In this document: positions 16,134 to 28,547 of the stretch, one piece after another
How the letters are laid out: the number at the start of each line of letters is the position of its first letter
Position numbering within the stretch: the first letter of the stretch is position 1
NCBI GenBank assembly: GCA_019915015.1
Contig: JAHBBC010000028.1
Location: 310,001 to 374,000, forward strand
DNA from: Auriscalpium vulgare
Taxonomy: Eukaryota > Basidiomycota > Agaricomycetes > Russulales > Auriscalpiaceae
Direction of reading: 5' to 3'
DNA length: 64,000 nucleotides
Position numbers and translations under genes: made by a program
Notes under the pieces: model-generated
What the model saw: the letters and a program-made list of their open reading frames with translations, nothing else
The model's database searches: none
What the model was told of the DNA's origin: nothing

Positions 16134-17275
16134 GTTGATCAGCGACCGGGTGCCGTCTACGAGGCTGATTTTAAAGCTCGAACACGATCGTCATCACCAT
16201 ACCCCTCGCGGTGGGCTCCAAAATGATACGCTATCACCCGGGACGGACCCTAGCGGGGCGTGCGGCGAGTGCCTCTCAGGACAACAACCACCAACACTGC
16301 CTCCTACACGTCGCGATCCCAACCGGGTGACTAGACTTGCAGAGTGGGAAGGTGTTCGTGTCGCTGTCGCGCTTCGCGCCCTCCCGCGGTCGTGCGGGGC
16401 CACCTCCTACCGCCTAAACACCAAACTAAAACACTCACCTGCCTGTGGATGCCCTCTACGGGATCCGCCTCCGAGTGCTTCGCAACCGTGTGCGAAGCGT
16501 CCGCCTATGGGCCGTCGCGCCCCCTCTTGCCTGTCCACCTGCCTACCTGTGCCCACATCGGTGGGGTCCTGCCTTCCTAAGTCTGGTAGCGCCTCAGGCT
16601 ACAGTTTCTGTGAGGTAAAGGGTGTGGGTAGCTTGCGCCGCCCACAGGTTGATTGGGTTGCTACATCTCGCGCAGCTCCCTAAGTAGTGTCTCTACCTAC
16701 GTCGCTAAGCCCTCCCGATCTAGCCCGCTCCGGTGATCCGTTCCGTCACCAGTCCCGGTTGCTCCTGGGTCGCCGGACCACGTTCCCATCACCCACGCTC
16801 CCGCGACCCTGCGCATCGCATGCTGCTTCCCCGTCTCGCGACGTCTCGCTACACGCTTGCCCGCGGCCTGAACCTATCACCGCGCGATGCTGTGACGAGT
16901 GACATCACGGTCAACTGTGATGCCGGCAGCACGCAGGACAGTGCGCGCCGTCTGCGTGATTTTTGCTTGGGGTAAGTATTCCGAGGCTGCTAAGCTCACG
17001 AATCATGACACGCGCGGAGTGCGCAATCATCCCACCCTTCTCCTTGAAGCGGAATGCGCGCTCGAAAGGGTGGTCACGGTCCTCTCGCGCCGGTGAAAGT
17101 TCTCGAGCACGCGAGATTTGCCCAATTGAGGCGGTAGACGCGCATGCGAAGCGCGTTTCTTGTCCTTCTTGAGCCGGGCGACCTCCGTCATAGAAGGCTC
17201 TTGCTGACTGTGCCTGGACTCAGGCTGCATCATGTGGACTGTTGCAATTTCACGCGAACTTTGACTATACAGTTG
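16134..17275. other. Noncoding tail of repeat unit, copy 1
   Basis: About 1.1 kb upstream of the gag start, conserved in both copies of the unit. CT-rich on the plus strand, without a convincing ORF or splice pattern. By position it would be the leader or LTR-like region of the gag transcript. No primer-binding site was identified with confidence. Confidence 0.45.
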
Positions 17276-27122: not shown

Positions 27123-28547
27123 ATGACACGCAGCCGCCCCGCAGCCCCCCACACACCAAAAAAGCATGCAAAGGTCGAGCGTACCGCTGTCATTGCTGGC
27201 CGCGAGCTCCCCGTCTCGCCCGTCCTCGACACGTTCTTCCTCTGGACGGCGGAACGCCACTCAATTCACCAAAAACGCGTCGCAGGCGAGTCCTGGCCGT
27301 GGACCGAGGACCCCATCTTCCAGCAGCACGCGTTCACCAACGTCTTCCGCATCTTCGATCGTACCACGCAGTATATCCTCCGACACGTAGTGCACGAGGG
27401 CGACCCCGACCTCCACGAGACGTGTTTCCGCGTCATCCTCTTCCGATTCTTCTGCCGCATATCGACGTGGGAGCTCCTCGTCGCCCGCCTCGGCACGCCG
27501 ACGTGGTGCGATTTCGACCTCGACGCGTACGAGGCCGTCCTGCGCGTGGAGTACGACAGCCAGCGCCCGCTTTACGGCACCGCGTACATCATGCCGGCGC
27601 CCCCGCTGGGGGGCGCGACGAACTTCGCCAACCACCTCCGGCTGCTCAAGCTCATGATGGACGTGGACCTGCCCGGGCAGCTCGCGGGCCTGTCGGAGAT
27701 GAGCGACGCGTTCGAGCGCATTGCGCTGTTCCCGAGCATGGGCGACTTCCTCGCCTTCCAGTGAGTTTCTTGACATCTCGCCTTGCGCACATATTCTGAC
27801 GCGCTGTCAACGCGTCAACTTAGGCTTCTGCTAGATCTGAACATGATCCCACAGATCTCGTACCCGGAGGACTGGGCCATCTGCGGGCCCGGCGCCGACG
27901 CGTGCCTGCGCAAGATCTTCGGGCCGGGCGTCGTGGGCCACTTCGGCGAGGCCCTCAAGTGGCTGCACGACACGCAGCAGCGGCACTTCGCGCGCCTCGG
28001 CATCGCACCGGAGCGCCGCCCGCGCGTGCACCGCAGCGCGCCGCCTGGGCTGTCGCTCGTCGACCTCGAGCACTCGCTCTGCGAGACGGACGTGTACTCG
28101 CGCGTGAAGCACCCGGACATCCCCGGCCTGCGCCGCGTGCACATCAGCGGCAAGCGCAATTTCAAGCCCGGCGCCGCGCCGCTCACCTGCGACCTCCCGC
28201 GCAACTGGAAGGTGGCGGCGGAGGCGGTGCGCGCCCGCGCGCGCAAGCACAAGCCGCTTCCCCCCGTCGACGCGGCGGACCCGGACCCGGAGTGGGTGCT
28301 CTCGCACATCGTCAAGGAGGCGGTAGGCGCCCGCGGCGTCCCGCTTTACCTCGTGCGCTACAAGGGGTACACGCCGGAAGACGACCTGTGGCAGGACGAG
28401 GAGGACCTGGAGGGCGCGGTGGAGCTACTCGAGGAGTGGCGCTCCCTGAAGGAGAGCATCTCGTCGGGGATCGCAAGTTCGAAAGCGAACAAGTTGAGCT
28501 CCAACAAGAGGCGTGCGTCTACCAAGCTGTCAGGAAGGCTTGTATGA
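27123..28547 (+). CDS. 5-hmdU-DNA-kinase helical domain (ADDT/aGPT-PPlase-like) protein fused to a chromodomain
   Basis: Exon 1 27123-27760 and exon 2 27824-28547 join over a 63-base intron (GTGAGT/TTAG) to give 453 aa with no frame problem. Residues about 35-290 match the helical domain first described as alpha-glutamyl/putrescinyl-thymine pyrophosphorylase and later assigned to phage 5-hydroxymethyl-dU DNA kinases: FFLWTAERHSIHQKR (38-52), WPWTEDPIFQQHAFTNVFRI (58-77) with DR, ETCFRVILFRFF, YGTAYIMP, MGDFLAFQLLLDLN at the exon junction, and the ISYPED...ICGPGADACLRKIF block. No P-loop kinase domain is seen, so catalysis may be lost or differ. Residues about 369-421 (EWVLSHIV...PLYLVRYKGYTPEDDLW...LLEEW) form a chromodomain retaining the aromatic positions that bind methyl-lysine, with Tyr in place of the usual Trp in W-K-G-Y. 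A Lys/Arg-rich linker (about 330-350) precedes it. Predicted nuclear, on chromatin; substrate unknown. Confidence 0.75.

Follow-up and report, generated by a model that had tools for sequence, protein, structure and literature searches.

What would a mushroom gene do that joins a helical domain of the HMUDK_hel family to a chromodomain? The question is raised by a single gene in a stretch of 64,000 nucleotides (the window) from Auriscalpium vulgare, a member of the order Russulales (assembly GCA_019915015.1, contig JAHBBC010000028.1, positions 310,001 to 374,000, forward strand). The fusion is real and conserved in the Agaricomycetes, it keeps both the aromatic cage of its chromodomain and the residues characteristic of its helical family, and it resides in a genome with TET/JBP and Pre-SET matches. 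Tentatively, and with a likelihood that we place a little short of even, the protein would dock on methylated histone H3 and there flip out a 5-hydroxymethylated pyrimidine and hold it, whether to read the base or to offer it to a modifying enzyme.

The gene and its parts, in window coordinates, are as follows.

27123..28547, + strand: HMUDK_hel–chromodomain gene, from the ATG at 27123 to the last stop base at 28547; a single open spliced frame of 453 amino acids
27123..27760, + strand: exon 1, from the ATG to the split codon 213, given by the spliced frame and matched by protein P0001
27761..27823, + strand: intron of 63 bp in phase 2 (GTGAGT...TTAG), given by the spliced frame, with read-through peptides at the equal position in 9/45 relatives
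27824..28547, + strand: exon 2, through the stop codon, given by the spliced frame
27219..28121, + strand: HMUDK_hel (PF18723, by Pfam), residues 33-312, with the intron inside it; its helical fold is predicted to be of the DNA-glycosylase type
27348..27359, + strand: codons for R76 to D79, part of the motif FTNVFR..DR; both end residues, R76 and D79, do not vary across the 45 fungal and 55 other rows counted
28080..28085, + strand: codons for C299-E300, part of the motif EHSLCE; likewise unvarying across those 45 and 55 rows
28308..28442, + strand: chromodomain (PF00385, by Pfam), residues 375-419 by profile; structural matches cover residues ~365-427
28293..28370, + strand: aromatic cage codons W370 (28293-28295), Y392 (28359-28361) and Y395 (28368-28370), all aromatic in 44/45 relatives

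The nearest protein, the independent public record P0001 (A. vulgare FA95DRAFT_1496875), is of equal length, differs by 5 substitutions in 453 residues and aligns without a gap across the splice. Both domains scored above their Pfam cut-offs, HMUDK_hel by far (345.3 bits against 25; expectation value (E) 3.3e-103) and Chromo more narrowly (28.6 bits against 25.1; E 1.4e-6). A preliminary description of the sequence had proposed one intact spliced frame joining the two domains and had seen no P-loop kinase domain; both points held. At E <= 1 the Pfam scan of the 453-residue protein returned nothing beyond HMUDK_hel and Chromo, and hence no P-loop kinase family, no ADDT (PF18724) and no HhH-GPD DNA glycosylase. 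The protein is not a whole 5-hydroxymethyldeoxyuridine (5-hmdU) DNA kinase, and a built-in kinase fusion was rejected because it contains no P-loop family. The description had also named ADDT beside HMUDK_hel as a profile for the helical region; only the latter identity stood, and direct comparison of the two profiles by hhalign was weak, giving a probability of 0.7 in one run and, across 33 columns, of 12.5 in another. PADLOC and NCBIfam scans gave no match to the protein, and its PHROGs match, phrog_2396, is labelled as of unknown function.

Nine residues of the helical domain (F71, R76, D79, F209, G234, G236, C299, E300 and R306) do not vary among the 45 fungal and 55 other rows counted in alignment A2, whose total of 111 includes 11 further rows, shorter and fungal-like, outside this count; the alignment was built without nine long kinase- or MazG-type proteins. 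Over all 111 rows, only F71, R76, D79 and F209 never vary, while each of the remaining five residues reaches at least 90%. Since nine residues are identical across 100 rows, the pocket of the helical domain is probably functional. Structure prediction, proposed earlier as a check, yielded models for the fungal protein (predicted local distance difference test (pLDDT) 93.9) and for a solo homologue, P0052 (pLDDT 95.1). The 50 structures compared with the P0052 model were pre-chosen by Foldseek, whose own best E was 0.11, and then compared again; they comprised 45 DNA glycosylases or homologues, three DUF2419 proteins, the 5-phosphomethyldeoxyuridine (5-PmdU) glycinyltransferase of phage PaMx11 and one unnamed protein, and the top match was DUF2419, a queuosine salvage enzyme. 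The helical domain thus likely adopts a DNA-glycosylase-type fold, at modest scores. For the fungal protein, the best viral structural match was the SP10 5-hmdU DNA kinase (E 9.7e-13), and plant ZMET2 was also among its structural matches. Searched against solved structures, profile A1 placed the best 60 of its 75 matches all in the chromodomain part, while PaMx11 gp50 and gp49 gave no match by sequence.

The fusion extends well beyond A. vulgare. Homologue searches covered the best 120 of 121 and the best 120 of 122 matches, with ~8000 candidates scored in each. The set of long relatives comprised 45 proteins of 374-561 amino acids, 33 from named fungi (3 partial records) and 12 metagenomic ones that are fungal-like by identity; its selection by length biases it toward proteins with room for a chromodomain. 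HMUDK_hel was found in 45/45 and Chromo in 42/45 by profile search (E <= 0.01), and Chromo in 28/45 by precomputed Pfam labels; P0002, at 21.6 bits, falls under the Chromo cut-off. Positions 370, 392 and 395, which we take to form the cage by comparison with HP1-type chromodomains, are aromatic in all long relatives except P0038 (Meripilus lineatus). In nine of them an extra peptide beginning YV sits precisely between Q213 and L214; we take these peptides to be introns that database translations read through, conserved in position. Among the matches listed, the named carriers belong to the Russulales, Agaricales, Hymenochaetales, Corticiales, Jaapiales and Gomphales, the Gomphales carrier Ramaria being a partial record that stops before the chromodomain; further carriers are species of the Polyporales and Gloeophyllales. 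As judged from these sequences, the HMUDK_hel–Chromo fusion is old and conserved in Agaricomycetes. A quick tree split 19 fungal rows from 70 bacterial or metagenomic ones (Shimodaira–Hasegawa-like approximate likelihood ratio test (SH-aLRT) support 96); its phage branches are very long, so that the tree names no donor for the fungal domain.

This conservation makes it very improbable that the gene is a decayed fusion without function or an artefact of gene modelling. Such a view can point to the incomplete cage of P0038 (1/45) and five shorter named fungal records that stop before the chromodomain (P0043, P0051, P0066, P0248 and P0250). However, P0043 and P0051 are marked partial, and P0066, P0248 and P0250 end just past the intron site (residues 213-216), as would exon-1-only gene models; moreover, the independent record P0001 matches the protein, and the common intron position, the identical residues and the spread across several orders all argue against decay. 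Two proteins with other domain combinations may be gene-model joins: P0241 of Lenzites betulinus (949 amino acids) has an extra DnaJ domain, and the metagenomic P0271 (207 amino acids) combines HMUDK_hel with PF00925. No paper describing the HMUDK_hel–chromodomain fusion was recognised among the literature matches listed. Iyer 2013 is said to discuss eukaryotic members, and may or may not name this fusion.

The genomic neighbours of the viral relatives bear on whether the helical domain is a kinase accessory. Two profile scans of viral contigs contributed their best 80 loci each; out of 161 loci, a core was recognised in 152, and reduction at 90% identity left 110; thymidylate-synthase relatives, TAGT glycosyltransferases and ADDT were counted anywhere in the fetched locus, and a kinase pattern up to 4 genes away (one was fused). 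The commonest partner was a thymidylate-synthase relative (76/110), followed by TAGT (25/110), a possible kinase by a loose Walker-A pattern (24/110) and ADDT (9/110), and 22 loci had none of the four. Kinase candidates co-occurred with ADDT (8/9 loci; Fisher p 1.4e-5) and avoided TAGT (1/25; Fisher p 0.013), suggesting that glycosyltransferases or kinases are alternative partners of HMUDK_hel in the phage loci examined. Given such neighbours, a helical domain without a P-loop is unremarkable, and its Pfam name seems too narrow for a family that, in the loci examined, is found beside thymidylate synthases and glycosyltransferases and not kinases alone. Of the earlier proposal of a kinase-type helical domain acting alone or with a partner, the lack of a P-loop stands, but the domain is not a kinase-only accessory: its most frequent neighbour in the phage loci examined is thymidylate-synthase-like, and the bacterial loci examined contain conserved genes of nucleotide metabolism. 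In the Brevibacterium phage LuckyBarnes (L073 4840-8855), a thymidylate synthase gene and a pair of TAGT glycosyltransferase genes are followed directly by HMUDK_hel, and 0/14 genes checked had a Walker A pattern.

It could still be supposed that the fungal protein supplies the recognition part of a 5-hmdU DNA kinase split over two proteins, the other being a separate P-loop kinase. Fused proteins of a TMK-like kinase and HMUDK_hel do exist (P0071), and in PaMx11 the HMUDK_hel gene gp50 adjoins gp49, which has P-loop matches (HMUDK_HMUD1 at E 0.002, under cut-off) and is recorded as a terminase small subunit. Walker-A matches, although scattered over many offsets, are commonest at -1 (10/65). 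Yet only 24 of the 110 viral loci have a candidate nearby, and the motif behind that count is loose and would miss kinases more distant than 4 genes; in the A. vulgare genome, PF18748 gave no match in a search whose control was silent, and PF02223 matched at one place only. We regard a split kinase as improbable.

The same PaMx11 locus bears on another explanation, in which HMUDK_hel has enzymatic activity of its own: as a transferase targeted to chromatin, it would attach a group to a 5-hydroxymethyl (or phosphomethyl) base, which is what its name, aGPT-Pplase clade 1, proposes. The neighbours there are gp46 (ADDT), gp47 (FAD oxidoreductase), gp48 (acetyltransferase), gp49, gp50 and gp51 (thymidylate synthase). 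Because the phage carries gp46 and gp50 separately, the structurally related protein whose activity has been named, the gp46 glycinyltransferase, is not an orthologue of HMUDK_hel; together with the weak ADDT profile comparison, this leaves a transferase a rather unlikely alternative to a domain that holds the base.

Relatives in bacteria lie in conserved clusters. Among 58 bacterial loci, 56 with the core (L005-L061), the neighbours within 6 open reading frames were MazG_C (41), M78 peptidase (39), a thymidylate-synthase-like protein (38), HTH (26), AcpS (15) and TMK-like (10), and dCTP-deaminase-like genes also occur in these clusters. The thymidylate-synthase-like neighbour is an unannotated 260-residue protein with weak matches only (Pfam E 0.0091, under cut-off, with a second member unmatched there; PDB E 0.026). 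The clusters resemble a defence or nucleotide-modification system; PMC13092281 credits DefensePredictor with newly validating, among others, a 5-hydroxymethyluracil-kinase domain in defence, which may or may not be HMUDK_hel. Genes of the MazG_C, thymidylate-synthase-like, dCTP-deaminase-like and TMK-like kinds, as well as the top fold match to queuosine salvage, would suit a protein that acts on free nucleotides or RNA, with the chromodomain merely localising it. The cage, aromatic in 44 of 45 relatives, is a better fit to a chromatin-bound substrate, and we consider action on nucleotides or RNA quite improbable.

The host genome holds candidate sources of the base. TET/JBP gave 17 exon matches, 11 of them over cut-off and one of those with four internal stops, DNA methylase gave 5 exon matches and Pre-SET gave 1 match. 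TAGT had no match in the genome profile search, nor had MazG_C, HMUDK_HMUD1 or ADDT, for which the controls were silent too, so that these three blanks do not speak for absence. Six TET/JBP matches of identical score and length (on C8, C9 (two), C13 (two) and C14) look like recent dispersed copies, perhaps transposon-borne, and fungal TET/JBP genes often lie close to transposase genes according to PMC12730594.

By DNA search the gene itself occurs at two places only, on contigs C28 and C45, identical over 1425 bases, so that it is not a repeat family; a transposon origin was rejected on the same ground. C45 aligns with window positions 22358-45906, where the contig ends, with 240 substitutions in 23,388 aligned bases, and its copy is likely an unmerged haplotype rather than a segmental duplication. 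Between 27000 and 28999 the two differ by 0 substitutions and one indel base; as this interval lies inside a low-divergence block, its identity carries no claim of selection. The similarity starts at about 22358, and leftward only a 120-base patch (17129-17247) aligns in the stretch fetched, which makes an insertion or rearrangement likely.

Taken together, these data are consistent with the docking mechanism given at the outset. The chromodomain, with its kept cage, would bind methylated histone H3, presumably at an H3K9me-like mark. At the docked chromatin, HMUDK_hel (aGPT-Pplase clade 1) would flip a 5-hydroxymethylated pyrimidine out of the DNA and keep hold of it; the base, plausibly made by the TET/JBP enzymes of the genome, would be either read or handed to a modifying enzyme. 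Any chemistry would proceed through a partner or the domain's own pocket rather than a built-in kinase. Because pocket residues and cage are both kept, simultaneous binding of methylated histone and modified base is likely. The ligand may be 5-hydroxymethyluracil (5hmU), an option suggested by the phage and bacterial relatives, whose neighbours are thymidylate-synthase-like. 5-Hydroxymethylcytosine (5hmC) is as possible, since oxidised 5-methylcytosine (5mC) is reported in Laccaria and Coprinopsis by PMC8889193, in whose main text the terms 5hmU and hydroxymethyluracil are absent. The authors of PMC12730594 cannot exclude thymine action for the PU and PE types of TET/JBP; they list Russulales under the AG type. 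The preliminary suggestion of base modification, or its reading, tied to histone-marked chromatin is accordingly a plausible link, with the chemistry conjectural. A more far-reaching version, in which mushrooms would run a histone-directed hypermodified-base system, TET/JBP making 5-hydroxymethyl bases and the chromodomain protein decorating or reading them to give a base new to eukaryotic DNA, appears doubtful.

The gene, present across several mushroom orders, offers a single-gene handle on two questions: whether fungi hypermodify DNA, and whether histone marks guide it. It joins a domain of bacterial and phage thymine-modifying clusters to a histone-mark reader, and would likely bring modified-base handling to marked chromatin. 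With phage proteins (PaMx11 gp50, ViI and M6-like SN1) and bacterial HMUDK_hel/aGPT-Pplase clade 1 proteins it shares a Pfam family and, in the rows compared, identical residues; in PMC9476957, an M6-like cassette is listed with aGPT-Pplase1 next to aGPT-Pplase2 and a nucleotide kinase. Unlike these phage and bacterial genes, the fungal one is nuclear, intron-bearing and fused to a chromodomain. It differs from the PaMx11 5-PmdU glycinyltransferase gp46 (PUGT, 8z2m; PF18724 ADDT), encoded separately from gp50, in having no ADDT match. The 5-hmdU DNA kinase of Bacillus phage SP10 is structurally alike, but its record has 637 amino acids and is named a kinase, whereas the fungal protein has no P-loop domain. 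Similar in design are chromodomain-guided DNA modifiers such as DNMT5 (PMC13297926) and plant ZMET2, which also combine a histone-tail-reading chromodomain and a DNA-base domain in one chain; they carry cytosine methyltransferase domains, whereas the fungal protein carries a domain of a hypermodification family.
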